Source of the DNA: an uncultured Gammaproteobacteria bacterium
GTDB lineage: Bacteria; Pseudomonadota; Gammaproteobacteria; Pseudomonadales; Litorivicinaceae
Direction of reading: 5' to 3'
Length of the DNA: 64,000 nt
NCBI GenBank assembly: GCA_913042205.1
Contig: CAJWIY010000005.1
Coordinates: forward strand, 1-64,000
In this document: positions 45,360 through 56,215 of the stretch, in pieces
Position numbering within the stretch: the stretch's first letter is position 1
How the letters are laid out: each line of letters starts with the position of its first letter
Translations under genes and position numbers: made by a program
Notes under the pieces: generated by a model
Databases searched by the model: none
What the model was told of the DNA's origin: nothing
Seen by the model: only the letters and a program-made list of their open reading frames with translations

Positions 45360-45559
45360 GACACCAACTCGTGGTGCATGAATCGACACATTGTCGGAAC
45401 ATCACGTAGTGTCGAAGGATCAGTCGCGATCAGTTTGAGACAGGTACCTTTGTCTGCCTTACGCAGGGCGTTTCGGAGCATCATGACAGGCTCAGGACAC
45501 TTCAAACCGGAGGCGTCGACAGTCTCCGCGACTATTTTTTTGTCACTGCAAAGTTTCAT
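45293..45559 (-). CDS. tusA: TusA-family sulfurtransferase
   Basis: 88 residues from the ATG at 45559 (MKLCSDKK); a start 11 codons upstream is possible. The signature GLKCPEPVMMLRNAL carries the sulfur-accepting cysteine, followed by IATDPSTLRDVPTMCRFMHHEL. TusA relays sulfur from IscS for tRNA 2-thiouridine and other uses. Soluble and cytoplasmic. Its 3' 67 bp overlap the DUF3080 gene, so the two mRNAs would be complementary there. It starts about 70 bp from divergent phaB. Confidence 0.92.
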   Translation of the reverse strand: MKLCSDKKIVAETVDASGLKCPEPVMMLRNALRKADKGTCLKLIATDPSTLRDVPTMCRFMHHELVSQEEREGFFEFVVSARGAKLQP

Positions 45560-45629
45560 GAGAGGCACAATACGTATCGTTTCCTGTACCATATCGCACC
45601 GATTTTTTTTATCCAAGGATTTTAATTTC

Positions 45630-46376
45630 ATGTCTAAACGAACCGCACTAGTAACCGGCGGTACCGGTGGTATCGGAACAGCAATCTGCCGAGAGCTTTT
45701 TACTGAAGGGTTTACTGTCATTGCCGGCTACAATTCCGGGGGTAACCATGACAAAGCCAGAGCGTGGCAAGAGGATCAGCGAGCCGCCGGCTATGAGTTT
45801 GATATCGCCTATGGTGACGTCTCAGACTCCGAGTCGTCCCGCCAATGTATCGACGGGATTGTGGAGACGCACGGGAATATTCATTGCCTGGTCAATAACG
45901 CAGGGATCACTCGCGACTCGACCTTCCGTAAGATGACACTAGAGCAATGGGATCAAGTGATGCACGCAAACCTTCGCTCTGTTTTCAACATGACCAAACT
46001 TGTTATCAACGGCATGCTGGAGGAAAGGTGGGGACGCGTGATAAACATCAGCTCGGTAAACGGGCAGAAAGGCCAGTTCGGACAAGCAAACTATGCAGCA
46101 GCAAAGGCAGGAATGCACGGCTTTACTAAATCTCTCGCTCAAGAGGTGGCATCGAAAGGGGTAACCGTAAACACAATCAGCCCCGGCTACATCATGACGG
46201 CCATGGTCGCGGCTATTGGCGATGAAATCCTCGAGAAGATCGCATCAACCATCCCCGTCGGGCGTCTCGGTAACCCTGACGAGGTCGCTTATTCAGTCGC
46301 CTTCCTAGCTTCAGATCGCGCGGCCTTTGTGACAGGCTCGAACCTCGCTATCAATGGTGGTCAACATATGTTCTAA
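45630..46376 (+). CDS. phaB: Acetoacetyl-CoA reductase PhaB
   Basis: 248 residues, short-chain dehydrogenase. Reduces acetoacetyl-CoA to 3-hydroxybutyryl-CoA with NADPH for polyhydroxybutyrate synthesis. ALVTGGTGGIGTAI (cofactor), VNNAGITRDSTF, catalytic YAAAKAG (Y-x-x-x-K) and the C-terminus AINGGQHMF typical of PhaB. ATG with AAGGA upstream. It is followed by phaC 100 bp downstream, so a phaBC unit. The thiolase phaA is not in the window. Confidence 0.95.
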   Translation: MSKRTALVTGGTGGIGTAICRELFTEGFTVIAGYNSGGNHDKARAWQEDQRAAGYEFDIAYGDVSDSESSRQCIDGIVETHGNIHCLVNNAGITRDSTFRKMTLEQWDQVMHANLRSVFNMTKLVINGMLEERWGRVINISSVNGQKGQFGQANYAAAKAGMHGFTKSLAQEVASKGVTVNTISPGYIMTAMVAAIGDEILEKIASTIPVGRLGNPDEVAYSVAFLASDRAAFVTGSNLAINGGQHMF

Positions 46377-46478
46377 CGCCCTTAAATTCCTGTGTGGGTA
46401 GCAAAAGACTCCTCGCAGGCTTTCGTTTTGTTGCGATGCACAATAAACTGTCAACATTAAATCGATGAGGATACTGGC

Positions 46479-48200
46479 TTGAGTACTGAGAACCCAAAAG
46501 CACCAGAGAAACTGTTCGAATCCATAAACGCAGAAAGCAAACGCCTAATGCAAGGCATGATTCGCTCTGAAGACACCGCGGAGATTGCAAGTAATCTCGC
46601 CAGTCTCTGGTCTCAGTTAGTTATGCATTCTTGGACCAATCCTCAAAGTTGGTTAGAGATGGTAAACCAATACCAGAAGGATCAATTCAAACTATGGAAT
46701 GATCTTATACACGGGACGGTGGATTCCCGACCACCCAAAGATCGTCGTTTCGACTCTGATGAGTGGTCAAAACTGCCAGTGTTTGACTTTATTAAACAAT
46801 CATACTTGTTGACAGCCGACGCACTCAGTAAGTCAACAGACGCAATCCCACTGGACGAAAAAGAAAAGAAGAGAGTGAAGTTCTACACGCAGTATTTCAT
46901 TGATGCCATGAGTCCCTCGAATTTCGTCAACTTAAATCCCGACGTCATCACAGAGGCTATGAGGACTAATGGCCAAAGTCTGATCGATGGAATGCAGAAT
47001 CTGATGTCTGATCTCGAAAAAGGTCGGATCACTATGACCGACGAGTCAGCCTTCACGTTAGGTGAAAATATAGGAGTGTCCGAGGGTTCTGTCGTCTTCA
47101 GGAACCATTTGTTCGAGTTGGTACAATATGAACCGACAACCGAAACCGTCCATCAACGACCACTACTAATCGTCCCGCCATGCATAAACAAATTTTATAT
47201 TCTTGACCTTCAGCCACAAAATTCCTACGTGAAGTGGTGTGTCGACCAAGGGAACACGGTGTTCCTAATTTCTTGGGCAAATACAACCCCAGAATATAGT
47301 CACATCGGTTGGGACGATTACGTTCAGGACGGTATTTTTGAGGCGATACGCGTTGTGAAAGAAATCACAAGCGAGAAAAAATTAAATGCGGTAGCTTGGT
47401 GTATTGGCGGTACGATTTTGGCATCAGCGCTGGCGGTCATGCAGAAAAAGCGAGACTCAAGTATCGGCTCTACGACCCTCTTGACGACGCTTCTCGATTT
47501 CTCTGAGCCGGGTGATCTGGGTGTATTTCTCAACGAGGAAGAAGTCAATATGCGGGCTGTCCAGATTGAAAAAGATGGGGTGATGTCAGGGAAAAATCTC
47601 TCCTTAGGGTTTAACTTGATTCGCTCTAATGATCTCATCTGGTCATATGTTGTAAACAACTACCTCAAGGGGAAAACACCCCCACCCTTCGACCTGCTTT
47701 ATTGGAATTCAGACCCGACGAACCTTCCAGCAACTATGTACAACACCTACGTGAGCGAGATGTATGTAAAAAATAATCTCGCAAAGCCTCGTGGCTTCAT
47801 TTGTTGCGGGAGTCCCGTGGAATTGAACAAAATCAAAACCCCGATGTATTTCTTATCGGCAATCGACGATCACATCGCTCCCTGGAAATCCACATTCTCA
47901 GGAACTGAACTTGTGGGAGGGCACCTAGAATTCGTGTTGGGTGGATCCGGTCATATCGCTGGCGTTATCAACCCACCCGAGAAAAACAAGCGCAACTATT
48001 GGACCTCCGGTGAATTAGGCCACGGGCCTGATCATTGGCTTGAAAGCGCAACTAATAACCTTGGGTCTTGGTGGACCCACTGGCATAAGTGGCTCGAGGG
48101 GCAGAATGCTCGTCAGGTCCCTGCTCGTCAAATCGAGACCGTTGGCGACTATAAAGAAATCGTTCCTGCTCCGGGCGACTATGTACGCGTTCGTCTCTAA
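46479..48200 (+). CDS. phaC: Class I polyhydroxyalkanoate synthase
   Basis: 573 residues. Polymerises 3-hydroxyacyl-CoA into PHA granules. Catalytic cysteine in the lipase-like box AWCIGGTI near residue 308, aspartate in LSAIDDHIAPW and histidine in GGSGHIAGVINPP; N-terminal PHA-synthase domain from SWTNPQSWLEMVNQYQKDQ. TTG start with GAGG 8 nt upstream. Length fits class I. No phasin or phaR gene follows; a 455-bp non-coding region comes next. Confidence 0.95.
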   Translation: MSTENPKAPEKLFESINAESKRLMQGMIRSEDTAEIASNLASLWSQLVMHSWTNPQSWLEMVNQYQKDQFKLWNDLIHGTVDSRPPKDRRFDSDEWSKLPVFDFIKQSYLLTADALSKSTDAIPLDEKEKKRVKFYTQYFIDAMSPSNFVNLNPDVITEAMRTNGQSLIDGMQNLMSDLEKGRITMTDESAFTLGENIGVSEGSVVFRNHLFELVQYEPTTETVHQRPLLIVPPCINKFYILDLQPQNSYVKWCVDQGNTVFLISWANTTPEYSHIGWDDYVQDGIFEAIRVVKEITSEKKLNAVAWCIGGTILASALAVMQKKRDSSIGSTTLLTTLLDFSEPGDLGVFLNEEEVNMRAVQIEKDGVMSGKNLSLGFNLIRSNDLIWSYVVNNYLKGKTPPPFDLLYWNSDPTNLPATMYNTYVSEMYVKNNLAKPRGFICCGSPVELNKIKTPMYFLSAIDDHIAPWKSTFSGTELVGGHLEFVLGGSGHIAGVINPPEKNKRNYWTSGELGHGPDHWLESATNNLGSWWTHWHKWLEGQNARQVPARQIETVGDYKEIVPAPGDYVRVRL

Positions 48201-48655: not shown

Positions 48656-50005
48656 ATGATGAGACTAATAAATCTAAAAGTTGCGTCTTTAGTAATTTCC
48701 ACGATGTTTATCGGAGGCTCAGTTACTGCCGACACTATCCGGTTTTGGACAATCGAGGACAAACCGCCACGCCTCGCGAAACAGCAAGCCATGGCTGACG
48801 ATTTCAAAGCACTAACCGGCCACGAGGTTGAAGTAATACCAATCGACGAAAAAGATCTGGGCAAACGCGCGACAGCAGCATTCGCCGCCGGTGACCTGCC
48901 AGATGTGATCTACCATACGTTGCAATACGTACTGCCGTGGGCAGAAGCGGGGATTCTCGACGTAGAGACCAACACTGATATCGTCGATTCGTTACGAAAG
49001 AGCACGTTTGCTCCGGGCTCTATCTCGATGGCGCAGTTCGACGGAATGACAGCCGCTGTTCCAGTCGACGGTTGGACACAAATGGTGGTCTACCGTAAAG
49101 ACCTTTTCAAAGCCGCGGGGCTTGAAGCACCTACAAGCTTTGCCGCTATCGAGGCCGCCATTGACAAGCTACATAACCCTCCCTCCATGTACGGTTTTGT
49201 TGCGCCGAATAAGGTCGATGAAAATTTCATGAGCCAGGTCTTAGAGCATGTCTTCCTAGCGAACGGTCTATCACCAGTGGGTTCCGATGGATTCGCTTCA
49301 CTTGATAAACAAAAGACCGTAGAGGTTTTAGATTTTTACAAAAAGATCGCAACCGCGTCGCCTCCGGGTGAATTGTTTTGGAAGCAGTCGAGGGAAGTAT
49401 ATTTCGCGGGTAAGGCTGCGATGATTATCTGGTCACCCTTCATCCTTGACGAACTCGCCGGTCTGAGGGACTCAGCGCCACCAACAATTAACGATGATCC
49501 CACCTCAACAGAGTTAGCCTCTAAAACTGGTATCGTCACTACCTTCGGTGGGCCATCAAACCCGTCAGGTGCGGCTTGGGCTGATATTCGTTACTTTGGT
49601 GTAACAAGCGATGCCAACACAGATGTTGCTACACAGTTCGTGGAATATTCAATGAAAGATGGTTACACAGCAACACTGTCGATCGCCCCCGAGGGCAAGT
49701 TTCCTGTTCGACGAGGAGAGGTCACTGACACGGCAAAATACATAAAAGCGTGGTCAAAATTACCTGTCGGTGTTGATCGAAAAGCGCCTCTCTCGGACGT
49801 TTATGATTCGAGAACTATACGCCGTATCGTTGAGGGCCTAGAGACCGCTGACCGTTGGGGTGTCAAAGAGGGTCAATTAACCCTAGCCTCCAAGATGATA
49901 AACTCTCAGGTGATCAACCGAGTAGTTCGCGGGTATATAGACGGTGAAATCGGTGCTGATGACGCTGTTGCCAGACTTAACAGTGAGTTGAAAGCAATCG
50001 AATAG
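48656..50005 (+). CDS. Sugar ABC transporter substrate-binding protein
   Basis: 449 residues, extracellular solute-binding family 1. Signal peptide KVASLVISTMFIGGSVTAD without a lipobox, so a free periplasmic protein. Mature part begins TIRFWTIEDKPPRLAKQQAM and has DLPDVIYHTLQYVLPWAEAG and AVPVDGWTQMVVYRKDLF, with a hydrophobic/aromatic ligand face. AGGAG upstream. First gene of a binding protein-permease-permease-ATPase set, separated from the permease by a strong hairpin. Substrate is likely a saccharide or polyol; not further determined. Confidence 0.9.
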   Translation: MMRLINLKVASLVISTMFIGGSVTADTIRFWTIEDKPPRLAKQQAMADDFKALTGHEVEVIPIDEKDLGKRATAAFAAGDLPDVIYHTLQYVLPWAEAGILDVETNTDIVDSLRKSTFAPGSISMAQFDGMTAAVPVDGWTQMVVYRKDLFKAAGLEAPTSFAAIEAAIDKLHNPPSMYGFVAPNKVDENFMSQVLEHVFLANGLSPVGSDGFASLDKQKTVEVLDFYKKIATASPPGELFWKQSREVYFAGKAAMIIWSPFILDELAGLRDSAPPTINDDPTSTELASKTGIVTTFGGPSNPSGAAWADIRYFGVTSDANTDVATQFVEYSMKDGYTATLSIAPEGKFPVRRGEVTDTAKYIKAWSKLPVGVDRKAPLSDVYDSRTIRRIVEGLETADRWGVKEGQLTLASKMINSQVINRVVRGYIDGEIGADDAVARLNSELKAIE

Positions 50006-50014
50006 TCTCGTCCC

Positions 50015-50040
50015 AGGCAATCATCTACGGATGATTGCCT
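50015..50040 (+). terminator. Hairpin between binding protein and permease genes
   Basis: AGGCAATCATC, loop TACG, GATGATTGCCT: perfect 11-bp stem 10 bp after the binding-protein stop, with no T-run after it. Such hairpins protect the 5' message and reduce read-through, giving more binding protein than permease, as known for maltose-type operons. Confidence 0.6.
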
Positions 50041-50079
50041 TAGGCCGCTTACAGACGAAAATTAGAAAACGGCGAAAGA

Positions 50080-51363
50080 ATGGGTTCGGTGGATAAGCGT
50101 CAAGGAGCGTTAGCGCGCAGGGAAAAAAGGCTCGCCTACCTCCTTCTTTTGCCGACATTCCTACTCGTTTTCTCGATCGTATTATTCCCCTTGATCGCTA
50201 ACTTCTGGATCTCAGTAAAACCAGTAACACTCTCGGACCTGAGGCCGCCCACTCTTGTTGTCAAAGAAAGGCTTCGTGGGAACTTAACCAATGCCAGTGA
50301 TAACGTAAAGATTGAGTATCGTTTCCGCAACTCATCGGTCAAATATCCACTCTCTTCGGCTTCCTTTTCTGATTCTTTGCCTCTTGGAATAGAGGTCACG
50401 CGTTTAGACCCCGCTTGCTCACTCACGGGTGATGGGATAATACTTCGATGTGACCTTGGCGATCTTGAACCAAAGGCCCGAGGAAAGATAAGAATCGAAG
50501 TCGCCTCAGCAGATAACTTTTCTGGTTCGAAAGAGATATTTCGAGCAAGCGAGCCTCAACTAGAATTTACTTCCTATAACATCCTCACATCTTTCGATTT
50601 CACCTTTGCCAATTTTAGCAAGATCTTTTCGGCCGCAGAGTTTTGGGATGTGCTAAAAGTATCCATTTACTACACCGTTTTTGGCACTGCTGGGGCGTTA
50701 ATCGTTGGTTTGTTCGCTGCACAGATCATGAAAAGATCGTTCCCGGGGCGATCTTTAGTAAGAGGTCTGCTGTTATTCCCATACGTGGCGCCGGTGATTG
50801 CCGTTGCGTTTAGCTGGGTCGTTCTCTTCGACCCATTTTCAGGCATCGTAAATGCGATGTTGATCCAAACAAATATTACAGATAATCCAATAAATTTTTT
50901 TGGTCAGAGGAGTATCGTTGTCGATTTTTTTGGATTTAGTTTCGGTTTGCCGCTCGCTCTGACCATGGTCATCATCTTCGAGATATGGCGTTATTTCCCT
51001 TTAGCTTTTTTATTCATCCTCGCACGCATGCAATCTATCCCGTCAGACATATACGAAGCCGCTGAGATCGACGGTGCCACGCCTCTGCAGCAGTTCTGGT
51101 TTCTTTCCATGCCCTTTATTGCTGGTATTCTGGCCATACTTTTTCTGCTCCGCTTTATTTGGACGTTCAACAAGTTTGACGATATTTTTCTTTTGACGGG
51201 TGGTAACGCCGGAACCCGAACCCTGACGGTCAGTGTCTACGAACAGGCCTTTGCAATTTCGAACCTTGGCGCTGGTGCTGCTGTGGCAGTGGTCATCTTT
51301 GTCCTTTTACTCATCTTCGCGATCATTTTCATTCGGTTCGCACCAAAGGACACCACCCAATGA
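50080..51363 (+). CDS. ABC sugar permease (MalF-like) with inserted DUF11-like periplasmic domain
   Basis: 427 residues, longer than the usual 290-310. Helix 1 at about 18-45. Residues about 48-170 form an extra periplasmic region with the pattern of a DUF11-type beta-sandwich: VKIEYRFRNSSV, FSDSLPLGIEVTRLDPACSL and LRCDLGDLEPKARGKIRIEV; C113 and C124 could form a disulfide. The canonical permease follows, with ANFSKIFSAAEFWDVLKVS, further helices and the ATPase-contact EAA motif EAAEIDGATPLQQFWFLSMP near 326-345. ATG start. Overlaps the second permease by 4 bp. The insert lies where MalF-type proteins contact the binding protein. Confidence 0.85.
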   Translation: MGSVDKRQGALARREKRLAYLLLLPTFLLVFSIVLFPLIANFWISVKPVTLSDLRPPTLVVKERLRGNLTNASDNVKIEYRFRNSSVKYPLSSASFSDSLPLGIEVTRLDPACSLTGDGIILRCDLGDLEPKARGKIRIEVASADNFSGSKEIFRASEPQLEFTSYNILTSFDFTFANFSKIFSAAEFWDVLKVSIYYTVFGTAGALIVGLFAAQIMKRSFPGRSLVRGLLLFPYVAPVIAVAFSWVVLFDPFSGIVNAMLIQTNITDNPINFFGQRSIVVDFFGFSFGLPLALTMVIIFEIWRYFPLAFLFILARMQSIPSDIYEAAEIDGATPLQQFWFLSMPFIAGILAILFLLRFIWTFNKFDDIFLLTGGNAGTRTLTVSVYEQAFAISNLGAGAAVAVVIFVLLLIFAIIFIRFAPKDTTQ

Positions 51364-52589
51364 AAATCTGGATGCACGGTATCTTCGGTGCAATCCTAGC
51401 GGGAAGCTTGTGGACCTGTTTTTGGCAAATAATTGTGACCACGATACTCGTGATATCAACCGGAGCGGCGATCTCAATACAGACGGGACCATCTGTCTTG
51501 GCGGGTGCCACACTGGGTCTGATTGCAATCCTTCTACGTGCCAAAAGGTGCATGTCGCATCATTTCTTGGGATGCACAACAATGGCTGCGTTTCTTTGGG
51601 CCTTTTCATTAGCGACGCCATTTGATCCGAGTGGATTACTACCAGACTGGCAGAGCTGGGTCTCACTCTTAATAGTCGCGGTATTGTCCTGGTTCTGCTT
51701 CACGTCGGTCCTAAAAAATATCTCGCCAACGGTGCAGAATAGATATGTTTCTGAGCAATTTTATCTCAGACTTTTCTGGGGGCTTGGTTTAGTCATCTTC
51801 ATTTTAATTGTGATAGCCCCGTTCTATGTGATGGTAATGACCAGCCTGAAGAGTCAGCAGAGTTTGCTGGCTAATCCGCTCGACCTATCAATCAATATGG
51901 ATGCCGGCGTTACAGTTCTGTTTCGTTCATATATCGAATTATTCACAGAATACAATTTCGGCTTATTGTTAATGAACTCGTCCTTGGTGTCGGTATCTAC
52001 CGTTCTGATAACCCTCTTATTCTCAATCCCTGGTGCCTACGCCGTAGCCAAGCTTCAGTTCCCGGGTCGGAATTTACTTTCCGGTTCCGTTCTATTGATC
52101 TATCTGATTCCTGCAATAATTTTGGTGATTCCACTTTATGCGGTTTTTAGTCAACTGGGCTTGAGGAATTCACTGATCGGTTTATGTATGGTCTACCCGG
52201 CAACCACCATTCCAGTTGCGCTCTATATGTTCCAAGGATATTTTGCGGGACTCCCATCCGAGCTCGACGATGCAGGTTTAATGGATGGACTGACACGATG
52301 GCAAATCATTTTAAAAATCGCTGTGCCATTGTCAAAGCCAGCGATCGCCTCGGTCGCGCTCTATGTATTTATGATTGCCTGGAACGAGTTTCTCTTTGCT
52401 TTTATGTTTTTGGACGACATTAAACTTTTTACATTGTCTAGAGGAATCGTCTCGCTGAACTCATCTGAGGTCCCCCGGGAGCACTTGATGGCTGGGGCTG
52501 TCATAGCGACTATTCCAGTTTTGCTTCTTTTCCTTTGGTTTGAAAAATTTCTTGTGGCTGGGCTGACTTCAGGCAGTGTGAAAGGATAG
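51360..52589 (+). CDS. ABC sugar permease (MalG-like) with extra N-terminal helices
   Basis: 409 residues against about 280 for MalG-type permeases. The first about 130 residues hold about four additional hydrophobic helices (IFGAILAGSLWTCFWQIIV; TGPSVLAGATLGLIAILL; MAAFLWAFSLA; WVSLLIVAVLSWFCF). The canonical part starts near GLGLVIFILIVIAPFYVMVM with TSLKSQQSLLANP, then the EAA region ELDDAGLMDGLTRWQIILK and the C-terminal AGLTSGSVKG. ATG start in an ATGA overlap with the first permease. Forms the other half of the translocation channel. Confidence 0.88.
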   Translation: MKIWMHGIFGAILAGSLWTCFWQIIVTTILVISTGAAISIQTGPSVLAGATLGLIAILLRAKRCMSHHFLGCTTMAAFLWAFSLATPFDPSGLLPDWQSWVSLLIVAVLSWFCFTSVLKNISPTVQNRYVSEQFYLRLFWGLGLVIFILIVIAPFYVMVMTSLKSQQSLLANPLDLSINMDAGVTVLFRSYIELFTEYNFGLLLMNSSLVSVSTVLITLLFSIPGAYAVAKLQFPGRNLLSGSVLLIYLIPAIILVIPLYAVFSQLGLRNSLIGLCMVYPATTIPVALYMFQGYFAGLPSELDDAGLMDGLTRWQIILKIAVPLSKPAIASVALYVFMIAWNEFLFAFMFLDDIKLFTLSRGIVSLNSSEVPREHLMAGAVIATIPVLLLFLWFEKFLVAGLTSGSVKG

Positions 52590-52592
52590 AAA

Positions 52593-52829
52593 GTGTCAAC
52601 ACTGTTTAGAGCATTTCCCACAATCAACGAAATATCCATATTTGTGACCGGACCTCATCAGATCGGTTCCGCATCTACAAACCAGTCCAGAATCCAGCAA
52701 GTTGATAATAGATACAGTCAAAAATATCTCTTGGATGATTCAGGGGCAAAAAATTTGAGATACATAGAGACGTTACGTCTTACGAATTGGAATTTAAGAT
52801 TGACAGTGTCAGAAGGGATAACTGTGTGA
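52593..52829 (+). CDS. Candidate 78-residue protein between permease and ATPase
   Basis: GTG start 4 bp after the permease stop with AGGA upstream. Polar, no signal peptide, with segment NWNLRLTVSEGITV at the end. No family recognised. Its stop overlaps the start of a second small ORF (GTGA). Could be a real small gene, or a decayed gene filling the 369-bp gap in the operon. Confidence 0.3.
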   Translation: MSTLFRAFPTINEISIFVTGPHQIGSASTNQSRIQQVDNRYSQKYLLDDSGAKNLRYIETLRLTNWNLRLTVSEGITV

Positions 52830-52951
52830 CAAGATATTTTGACGCGAAAGCTGGCCGAACTTTTTATTCAATTGATTTCGCTTGGTCTCAAGCAAATTGT
52901 CTGTTTTGCAATCCCACCGCAGTAACGGTGACAAACGAGCGAGGAAACTAA
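52826..52951 (+). CDS. Candidate 41-residue protein with C-x-x-C
   Basis: GTG start in a 4-bp overlap (GTGA) with the preceding ORF; reads T-R-Y-F-D-A-K-A-G then FAWSQANCLFCNPTAV and ends ERGN. The CLFC pair could bind metal or form a disulfide. No family recognised. The stop lies 7 bp before the ATPase start, so it would be part of the operon. Chance cannot be excluded at this length. Confidence 0.3.
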   Translation: MTRYFDAKAGRTFYSIDFAWSQANCLFCNPTAVTVTNERGN

Positions 52952-52958
52952 TAACAAG

Positions 52959-54014
52959 ATGGCTTCAATCCAGCTTAAATATATTCAGAAATCGTTCAGT
53001 GACCTACAGGTCATCAAGGGCATCGACCTCGACATAAGGGAAGGCGAGCTCGTAGTGTTAGTTGGCCCGTCAGGATGCGGTAAATCCACACTCCTAAGAA
53101 TTTTAGCTGGTCTCGAGGATGCTGACTCTGGTTCGGTTTTTATAGATGGCGCAGATGTAACGGACCGGTTGCCGTCAGAACGTGGCCTTTCGATGGTATT
53201 CCAATCATATGCTCTATACCCGCATATGACTGTGAGTGAAAATATAGGTTTTGCATTAAAAACGGCTGGTATGGCCCAGCATGTGATTTCTAGGCGCGTC
53301 CGGCAAGTGGCCAAGATTTTACAATTAGAGCCAGAATTGGACCGACTGCCAAAACAGTTATCAGGAGGACAACGACAACGGGTGGCAATAGGCAGAGCTA
53401 TAGTTCGAGAGCCAAATGGTTTTTTGTTTGATGAGCCGCTTTCTAACTTGGACGCGGCACTACGCGCCAACATGCGTTTGGAAATATCGCGACTGCAGAA
53501 ACAGTTGGGAGTCACAACCGTTTACGTTACCCACGACCAAGTTGAAGCAATGACGTTGGCTGATCGAATCGTAGTACTGAACGAGGGCACCATAATGCAA
53601 GCGGGTAGCCCGCGCGAATTATATACAGCCCCTCGAAATAAGTTCGTTGCTGAATTCATTGGCAGCCCTAAAATGAACATCGCCCGTTGCGAGGTAAACA
53701 ATACATCCGTGTCGCTATTAGGGACTGGGACAATACTTAAGAATTTGTTGACAGAAAAAGCTGAAGCAGTTTGGCTCGGTGTAAGACCAGAACATATTCA
53801 AGTCTGTGATACGGCCAGTGCCTCACTATGCGGCACGGTCGCGGTCGTCGAGTACTTGGGTTCAGAACAGTTCGCATATGTCGATTGTGGTCTCGATGAA
53901 ATGATCACGGTGAGCGCCGATCCGAGCAGTGAAATAATTCTTGGCGCGGAGGTAGGGATAAGCCTGGATCCAAATCAAATACATTTTTTTGATCGGAAAG
54001 AAAGGCGAATTTAG
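52959..54014 (+). CDS. Sugar ABC transporter ATPase (MalK/UgpC type)
   Basis: 351 residues. Walker A GPSGCGKSTLL, Q-loop VFQSYALYPHMT, signature LSGGQRQRVAIGRAIV, Walker B FLFDEPLSNLD, switch VTHDQVEAMT, and a C-terminal OB-fold regulatory region with VWLGVRPEHIQ and VVEYLGSEQF. Energises the two permeases on the cytoplasmic side. ATG with GAGGAA upstream. Last gene of the transporter set; acetoacetyl-CoA synthetase follows after about 240 bp with no clear terminator. Confidence 0.94.
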   Translation: MASIQLKYIQKSFSDLQVIKGIDLDIREGELVVLVGPSGCGKSTLLRILAGLEDADSGSVFIDGADVTDRLPSERGLSMVFQSYALYPHMTVSENIGFALKTAGMAQHVISRRVRQVAKILQLEPELDRLPKQLSGGQRQRVAIGRAIVREPNGFLFDEPLSNLDAALRANMRLEISRLQKQLGVTTVYVTHDQVEAMTLADRIVVLNEGTIMQAGSPRELYTAPRNKFVAEFIGSPKMNIARCEVNNTSVSLLGTGTILKNLLTEKAEAVWLGVRPEHIQVCDTASASLCGTVAVVEYLGSEQFAYVDCGLDEMITVSADPSSEIILGAEVGISLDPNQIHFFDRKERRI

Positions 54015-54256: not shown

Positions 54257-56215
54257 ATGGTTCCGATTTGGGTGCCCACAGCAGAAAGGGTGGCAAACGC
54301 GGCAGTGACTGATTTGATGGCTCACTTCAATGCGAAGCTCGGCCGCTCCATTCACGATTATGCTGGACTGCACAAATTCAGTGTGCATGAACCCGAAGAA
54401 TTCTGGGATGGCATCTGGGAACATGCGAGACTCATTGGCATAAAAAAAGGGCCGACAATGGTCCGTCGCACAGAAATGCCGGGAGCACAGTTTTATCCCG
54501 AATCCCTCATTAATTTTGCTGAAAATTGTCTGGCTCATAATGCCCCAGAAAATGAGATTGCGATCATCTCATACACCGAGACCGGAGCTCGCGCGGAGCT
54601 AACGTGGAAGGAACTCAGACAACGGGTCGCGAATTTCAGGTACACGTTGATCGAGTTAGGTGTGCAATCTGAGGATGTGGTGGCCGGGTTCGTCAGTAAC
54701 GGATCGGAGGCGATCGTAGCATCGTTGGCAACACTGTCACTCGGAGCCATATGGACCAGTTGCTCTCCTGACTTCGGAGTTCAGGGTGTACTTGACCGGT
54801 TCGGCCAAACAAATCCGAAAGTATTGGTCGCCGCCCATAGCGCCCAGTACAACAACAAATCGATCGATTTAACCGATCGCGTTAACGATCTCCTCTCAGA
54901 ACTTCCATCGATCACCGCGAGTATAGTTTTCCTCGGCGCTTGCCCGGATGAAATCTCGGGCCTGATTTATCGTCCAGGTTGCCGCGTTGTTGATTTCGAC
55001 ACGGCAATAACCGGTAACCATCCTCTGGAGTTCGTGGCTACACCCTTCAACCACCCGGGTTTTATACTTTACAGTTCAGGAACAACCGGCGTACCCAAGT
55101 GCATCGTTCACAGCCAAGGCGGGGCTCTCATTCAACTTGTCAAAGAGCACCGCTACCACGTCGATGTCAAGGCTTCTGAACGGGTTTTCTATTACACCAC
55201 CTGTGGCTGGATGATGTGGAACTGGTTGCTCGCCTCTCTGGCGTCAAAAGCTTGTGTGGTTACCTTTGATGGTTCTCCTTTTGTGAGAGGCGCCAAGACT
55301 CTTTGGACACTATGTGATCAGGATCAGTGGCATGTCTTTGGCACCAGCGCCAAATATATAGCTGCGATTGATAAACATGGTTATCAACCGCGTGAAAAAC
55401 ACCAGATGAAATCTCTGAAAGTGATCTTATCGACCGGCTCGCCATTAGCACACGAATCCTTCGATTATGTGTATCGAGATATTAAAAAGGACGTGCTGTT
55501 AGGATCCATATCGGGCGGTACGGACATTGTTTCGTGCTTCTGTCTCTCGTGCCCGATTCTTCCTGTTTACCGTGGTGAATTGCAGTGCGCTGGGCTAGGG
55601 CTCGCCGTCGATGTGGTGGATGAAGCGGGTCAGTCTGTCATCGATGAGAAGGGTGAGTTGGTTTGTGGACAGCCGTTCCCCGTGATGCCGGTTCGTTTCT
55701 TAGGTGACGCTGATGGTAGTATGTACCGCTCTGCCTACTTTGAGCGATTCACCGGTATATGGGCACACGGTGACTTCGCCGAGCGGACCGTGCGTGATAG
55801 TTTCATCATCCACGGCCGTGCTGATGCGACTCTCAACCCGGGCGGGGTTAGGATTGGCACTGCTGAAATATACCGACAGGTGGAATCTGTCCCTGCCGTG
55901 CTCGAGTCACTCGCAATAGGTCAAACTGTCGGTGACGATGTCCGGATTGTTTTATTTGTGGTACTGCGGGAGGAGGTAACACTTGATGACGATCTTCGAA
56001 AAACGATCAAAAACCAGATCCGCAAAAATACGACACCACGCCATGTTCCCGAGATTATTGCGCAGGTACCTGACCTCCCTCGGACCGTAAGTGGTAAGAT
56101 TGTCGAACTAGCCGTGCGCGACACAGTACACGGCCACATTGTAAAAAACATTGAGGCGCTTGCGAATCCAGATGCATTGGACTACTTCAAAAATCACCCG
56201 GACGTTTGTATTTAG
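54257..56215 (+). CDS. Acetoacetyl-CoA synthetase
   Basis: 652 residues, ANL superfamily. Activates acetoacetate to acetoacetyl-CoA with ATP. Family features: FSVHEPEEFWDGIWEHA N-terminus, GAIWTSCSPDFGVQGVLDRF, the AMP motif LYSSGTTGVPKCIVHS near residue 270, TTCGWMMWNW, HGDFAERT, and the lysine region SGKIVELAVRD near the C-terminus; the W-x-SCSPDFG pattern separates it from acetyl-CoA synthetase. ATG preceded by GGAGGAGAAAGG. With phaB/phaC 6 kb upstream it can recycle acetoacetate from PHB breakdown. Confidence 0.93.
   Translation: MVPIWVPTAERVANAAVTDLMAHFNAKLGRSIHDYAGLHKFSVHEPEEFWDGIWEHARLIGIKKGPTMVRRTEMPGAQFYPESLINFAENCLAHNAPENEIAIISYTETGARAELTWKELRQRVANFRYTLIELGVQSEDVVAGFVSNGSEAIVASLATLSLGAIWTSCSPDFGVQGVLDRFGQTNPKVLVAAHSAQYNNKSIDLTDRVNDLLSELPSITASIVFLGACPDEISGLIYRPGCRVVDFDTAITGNHPLEFVATPFNHPGFILYSSGTTGVPKCIVHSQGGALIQLVKEHRYHVDVKASERVFYYTTCGWMMWNWLLASLASKACVVTFDGSPFVRGAKTLWTLCDQDQWHVFGTSAKYIAAIDKHGYQPREKHQMKSLKVILSTGSPLAHESFDYVYRDIKKDVLLGSISGGTDIVSCFCLSCPILPVYRGELQCAGLGLAVDVVDEAGQSVIDEKGELVCGQPFPVMPVRFLGDADGSMYRSAYFERFTGIWAHGDFAERTVRDSFIIHGRADATLNPGGVRIGTAEIYRQVESVPAVLESLAIGQTVGDDVRIVLFVVLREEVTLDDDLRKTIKNQIRKNTTPRHVPEIIAQVPDLPRTVSGKIVELAVRDTVHGHIVKNIEALANPDALDYFKNHPDVCI

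Follow-up and report, generated by a model that had tools for sequence, protein, structure and literature searches.

The window, a 64,000-nucleotide stretch of DNA, encodes a sugar importer whose first permease, permF (50080-51363, forward strand, 427 aa), is a CUT1-type ABC permease with a DUF11 insert between its first transmembrane helix and its core. The locus raises the question of what this extra domain is, how the permease came by it and what it does there. Our best explanation, to which we assign a probability of roughly 55%, is that permF belongs to a clade of insert-bearing permeases going back to a single capture of the domain, that the domain would act as a docking arm for the solute-binding protein (SBP) in the manner of the P2 domain of MalF, and that the system is a probable osmolyte importer. 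A more specific scenario falls slightly short of even odds: a DUF11/CLIPPER domain from an adhesin stalk would have been captured once and become an SBP docking arm convergent with MalF P2, losing the isopeptide bond and keeping the disulfide, in a widespread marine family of osmolyte transporters.

Extent and identity of the permF insert

The only Pfam match in permF is BPD_transp_1 (9.7e-15, residues 207-417), and in the PDB the core matches mycobacterial SugA (5e-28) and E. coli MalF (2.6e-13). This core, an EAA motif, a second permease, an SBP and a MalK-type ATPase place permF among the CUT1 permeases. The cytoplasmic EAA motif (EAAEIDGATP, residues 326-335, 51055-51084, forward strand) was located by sequence and by profile alignment to the EAA region of MalF. 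The first transmembrane helix (TM1, residues 20-46, 50137-50217, forward strand) was placed by hydropathy, by an AlphaFold2 helix covering residues 10-46 and by profile alignment, which makes it equivalent to TM3 of MalF. The canonical core starts past residue ~175, leaving an extended first loop of residues ~47-175 (50218-50604, forward strand). Based on the cytoplasmic position of the EAA motif and the helix count, this loop lies on the periplasmic side.

Related CUT1 permeases from these searches, most of them 290-350 aa long, align only past permF residue ~160-178. For example, SugA of the mycobacterial trehalose importer LpqY-SugABC, the closest solved permease core, has 305-307 aa and no insert. 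The comparison bears out the original prediction of about 120 surplus residues between helix 1 and the core. The motifs quoted for the insert are likewise all found: DSLPLG at residues 98-103, C113 and C124 with 10 residues between them, and LGDLEPKARGKIRIEV at residues 126-141.

The insert had been proposed to be a DUF11-like domain, and a profile search had been suggested as a check. Scanned alone, the window's own insert has no Pfam match even at E 10 and no match to NCBIfam or PDB sequences, whereas the inserts of 48 out of 65 relatives match DUF11 (PF01345; best 5.2e-10). In the permF of Thalassospira lucentensis, BPD_transp_1 and DUF11 each score above the Pfam cut-offs. With hhalign, the insert profile aligns to a DUF11 profile, built from 16 independently collected DUF11 domains, at 95.3% (E 2.1e-8), compared to 1.2% for the reversed alignment against DUF11 and 0.3% for MalF P2 against DUF11. 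The insert profile also retrieves DUF11 repeats in proteins of 800-3200 aa; against PDB sequences it gives only a chance match to augmin. The DUF11 identity of the window's insert is thus drawn from its relatives together with profile and fold comparison.

AlphaFold2 models the insert as eight strands (mean pLDDT 88.5, pTM 0.79), and the beta-sandwich covers residues 59-165 (50254-50574, forward strand). It is the best-scored part of the full-length permF model (mean 72.8), in which the core is of low confidence. For both models the top PDB match in Foldseek is 9ifr, the crystal structure of a CLIPPER domain, CLIPPER being the new name of DUF11 (PMC12617251). Foldseek TM-scores are moderate (0.58); the fold class of the insert is secure, its fine topology not. 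Eight predicted strands fall within the 7-9 of the Ig-like or CnaA-like beta-sandwich that characterises DUF11. The original prediction had staked its case in advance on a beta-sandwich being predicted. With PF01345 in relatives, the AlphaFold2 model, Foldseek and hhalign all in agreement, the reading of the first periplasmic loop as carrying a DUF11-type beta-sandwich holds up.

The likeness to the DUF11/CLIPPER domain extends from the fold to the N and DxLP motifs, and to the Cys pair and LGxL motif of bacterial DUF11 repeats. Two differences stand out. First, the insert is a single copy inside a membrane permease, whereas DUF11 usually forms tandem stalk repeats of secreted surface proteins; a domain known as a structural stalk is now placed in a membrane transporter. 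Second, the insert lacks the Lys-Asn signature of the isopeptide bond that links Lys715 to Asn806 in CLIPPER, a bond that is not universal and is missing from some DUF11 domains (PMC12617251). The Lys position is occupied by N in 23, K in 17, R in 17 and S in 7 of 65 inserts, and most members have Ser or Thr at the presumed Asn position, as matched by alignment. Since Lys occurs in only 17/65 and the presumed Asn is mostly Ser/Thr, these sequences suggest that no isopeptide bond is to be expected in the insert family.

The Cys pair, common to the insert and bacterial DUF11 repeats, is a probable disulfide (C113-C124, 50416-50451, forward strand), and both cysteines are invariant, in 65/65 and 78/78 relatives. 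The presence of the insert in 78/78 relatives with both cysteines invariant, and its folding at pLDDT 88.5, show that it is neither a chance match nor a frame artefact. Elsewhere, in genomes of the window's order, two predicted trypsin-like secreted proteases (L022, L024) carry DUF11-like repeats that share the motif C-x(n)-C-xLGxL.

The slot of MalF P2 and the origin of the insert

P2 of the maltose transporter permease MalF comprises residues 91-271 and contacts MalE (PMC3150292). Pfam places MalF_P2 (PF14785) at residues 100-260 of MalF and MalF_N_TM at 14-61. So far, P2 has been regarded as something specific to the maltose transporter. The original prediction had assigned P2 to a different loop of MalF, which the permease profile alignment does not bear out: permF 18-49 falls on MalF 61-92, and permF 176 onward on MalF 261 onward. 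The TM1 segment is weak alone (1.4 bits) but collinear, and TM1 of SugA aligns at 16 bits. By this alignment, insert and P2 share one slot, the TM3-TM4 loop of MalF being the TM1-TM2 loop of permF; two extra helices at the N-terminus of MalF account for the differing loop numbering. By analogy with P2, the corrected slot would make the docking idea more plausible.

In both cases a soluble extra domain sits in the same periplasmic loop of a CUT1 importer with a soluble SBP. The two differ in size (~165-180 aa for P2 compared to ~120 for the insert), and MalF lies outside the insert clade. Homology of the insert to P2 was rejected on sequence: hhalign gives 0.2%, and scans of the inserts yield no MalF_P2 match in Pfam. 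MalF structures are not among the 50 best Foldseek matches of the insert models. MalF_P2 was found in 0/229 genomes of the window's class, with a positive E. coli control.

We collected relatives by scanning genome contigs, which gave at least 482, and used the best 80 for family comparison. Among these 80 are members of SAR116, Rhodobacteraceae/Roseobacteraceae, Thalassospira, Roseibium, Stappia, Leucothrix and a Thiotrichales MAG, and most align nearly full length to permF at 55-75% identity. The insert is kept in all 78 usable sequences among them. In a 398-genome sample of the phylum, matches to the insert profile fall into two groups. Strong matches (E < 1e-29) come from reading frames 413-493 aa long, which are permF orthologues; the weak ones sit for the most part in reading frames 800-3200 aa long whose products behave like DUF11 repeat proteins. 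Permeases outside the clade in the same sample have at most 40% core identity and align from residue ~160-178 only. The insert is therefore not peculiar to the window genome; it characterises a discrete clade of permeases, found in Alphaproteobacteria and some other lineages, and is fixed there.

In a maximum-likelihood tree of the cores, insert-bearing permeases form one group (support 100/99). The nearest row outside is a Nonomuraea permease with a short loop and no insert (100/98); the long branch of MalF is placed in another part of the tree. Because of this topology, the core sequences show a single gain of the insert, independent of MalF. The earlier suggestion of an independent solution to the task of P2 accordingly stands for its first half: core tree and P2 mismatch support a separate origin, and a shared task is something we infer. 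In the open-access papers searched, we came across no earlier account of this insert, nor of a permease containing DUF11. If true, an unrelated second domain in the P2 slot of a large importer family would show that accessory docking domains can generally be acquired through this loop.

Such a wide distribution bears on the possibility that the domain is a neutral ornament, captured once and kept without a dedicated role. The insert evolves faster than the core, and some relatives without it likewise have a GH63 gene next to the transporter, both as this explanation would have it. However, a dispensable domain of 120 residues would be expected to be lost somewhere, whereas all 78 relatives, from Alphaproteobacteria and a few further lineages, retain it with invariant cysteines and near-invariant R81, R83, N84, D98 and P101. 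We therefore regard a role-free ornament as improbable.

In the core tree, the window's permF itself is nested among sequences of the SAR116 type, and the importer system occurs in few members of the window's own genus and family. Since the system-bearing Alphaproteobacteria share only the phylum with the window genome, this nesting makes horizontal acquisition of the importer locus (48656-54014) probable.

A candidate docking arm and its alternatives

According to our proposed mechanism, a DUF11/CLIPPER beta-sandwich inserted once between TM1 and TM2 of a CUT1 permease, in the slot of MalF P2, would project into the periplasm. There it would serve as a P2-like arm that holds the soluble SBP over the transmembrane channel, docking via a conserved outward face that includes R81 and R83. 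The domain would be stabilised by the C113-C124 disulfide, and not, as in adhesin CLIPPER domains, by an isopeptide bond.

Conservation is lower in the insert than in the core of permF (modal identity 0.51 compared to 0.78), and R81, R83, N84, S86, D98 and P101 are near-invariant among the 78 relatives. The motif YRFRNSS (residues 80-86, 50317-50337, forward strand) is the candidate docking face. Conservation of R81 and R83 reaches 0.97 and 0.99, and the same positions are variable in ordinary DUF11. Strand alternation, rather than coordinates, is the basis on which both arginines are predicted to face outward. It is this outward-facing Arg pair, together with the analogy to the P2 slot, that would make docking the best reading of the domain.

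Alternatively, the domain could bind glycan, osmolyte or peptidoglycan directly, or otherwise select the substrate, without engaging the SBP. CBM2-type cellulose- and chitin-binding domains are indeed among the Foldseek neighbours of the insert. Nevertheless, these are generic beta-sandwich matches (TM 0.5-0.6, 12-16% identity) and the best match is CLIPPER, while the conserved face is Arg-rich and not aromatic. Direct ligand binding is, in our judgement, the least probable of the explanations considered.

Docking by the insert is also to be judged from its presumed partner. The SBP gene (48656-50005, forward strand, SBP_bac_8 1.2e-17) encodes a soluble type with a signal peptide and no lipobox. 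A lipobox is found in 0/67 testable SBPs of the family, compared to its presence in nearby insert-less relatives from Nonomuraea, two haloarchaea and Enterobacter. We take the consistent lack of a lipobox in the clade (67/67) as suggestive of docking. A stricter version, in which a soluble SBP needs the insert, loses ground because some Gram-negative relatives have a soluble SBP but no insert (Agrobacterium, Paracoccus and L211 of the sister group). Based on these relatives, a soluble SBP does not generally need the domain. Mirror-tree comparison is non-discriminating: the insert co-diverges with the SBP at a partial r of 0.26 and with the cytoplasmic ATPase at 0.50.

The second permease offers a different explanation. 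permG (51360-52589, forward strand) is a MalG-type permease whose MalG-like core begins at residue 142. It is preceded by an N-terminal extension of ~125 residues with ~4 extra hydrophobic or TM segments by family hydropathy (51360-51740) and no Pfam match. A permG of ~400 aa is also found in complete family members. The insert could be a structural or assembly module that packs on the extra helices of permG, or shields the periplasmic face, and so stabilises the heterodimer. The permG extension co-occurs with the insert and both are missing in the Nonomuraea and haloarchaeal relatives; in adhesins, moreover, the typical role of DUF11 is that of a passive stalk or of a module for stability (PMC12617251). 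Yet conservation is low in the hydrophobic extension (mean identity 0.24), whereas the insert has outward near-invariant arginines and sits in a slot that belongs to a known docking domain. An assembly module is the strongest of the alternatives, though still an unlikely one next to a docking arm. The insert would also be a comparison case for what a domain in this slot does, be it SBP tethering, ATPase licensing or partner selection.

Operon context and probable substrate

The usual operon order is SBP, permF, permG, a GH63 MGH1-like hydrolase and a MalK-type ATPase, and many loci have a LacI regulator ahead of the SBP (56 loci have a match in their stretch). A gene matching the probe hydrolase sits between permG and the ATPase in 69/80 loci (best 80 of at least 482). 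Two probe hydrolases contain an MGH1-like GH63 domain (7.9e-111 and 1.3e-102), and their PDB matches are T. thermophilus MgH (3.5e-100) and an M. hassiacum hydrolase (1.8e-58), the latter a glucosylglycerate hydrolase (PMC6608630). Because the hydrolase is encoded in 69/80 operons, osmolytes of the mannosyl- or glucosylglycerate type are the probable substrates of the importer family, judging from gene content. In Maritalea, a glycerate kinase (DUF4147/MOFRL) lies near the locus. Assignment to the AglF alpha-glucoside family was rejected: the operon includes a gene of the MGH1-like GH63 type, and the searches identified no alpha-glucosidase family. The papers searched describe no ABC importer for mannosyl- or glucosylglycerate in marine Alphaproteobacteria, and the insert clade points to a likely one.

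The importer of Nonomuraea gerenzanensis also has an adjacent MGH1-like hydrolase (SBP 38%, permF core 46%, permG core 44% identity). In contrast to the insert clade, it has neither the insert (loop ~22 aa) nor the permG extension, and its SBP carries a lipobox.

In the window, permG is followed by a MalK/UgpC-type ATPase (52959-54014, forward strand, NF008653 9.1e-135) and the hydrolase is not found in the operon (52590-52958), nor does PF22422 match anywhere in the window genome. It is also missing in a close relative (L113) and kept in two genus-level relatives (L114, L115). From this gene content, the lineage of the window appears to have lost the hydrolase; uptake may proceed without hydrolysis, or the substrate or its fate may have changed.

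Immediately upstream of the importer (45378-48200) are genes for a short-chain dehydrogenase (phaB-like) and a PhaC polyester synthase, the listed start of the 45378 ORF seeming too early. Downstream (54257-56215) lies an acetoacetyl-CoA-synthetase-like AMP-binding enzyme. Finally, we observed a subgroup of eleven operons (L065, L066, L069, L071, L072, L083, L087, L091, L101, L103 and L104) in which the SBP is only ~53-57% identical to that of the window and permF ~60%, possibly reflecting SBP replacement or a different substrate.
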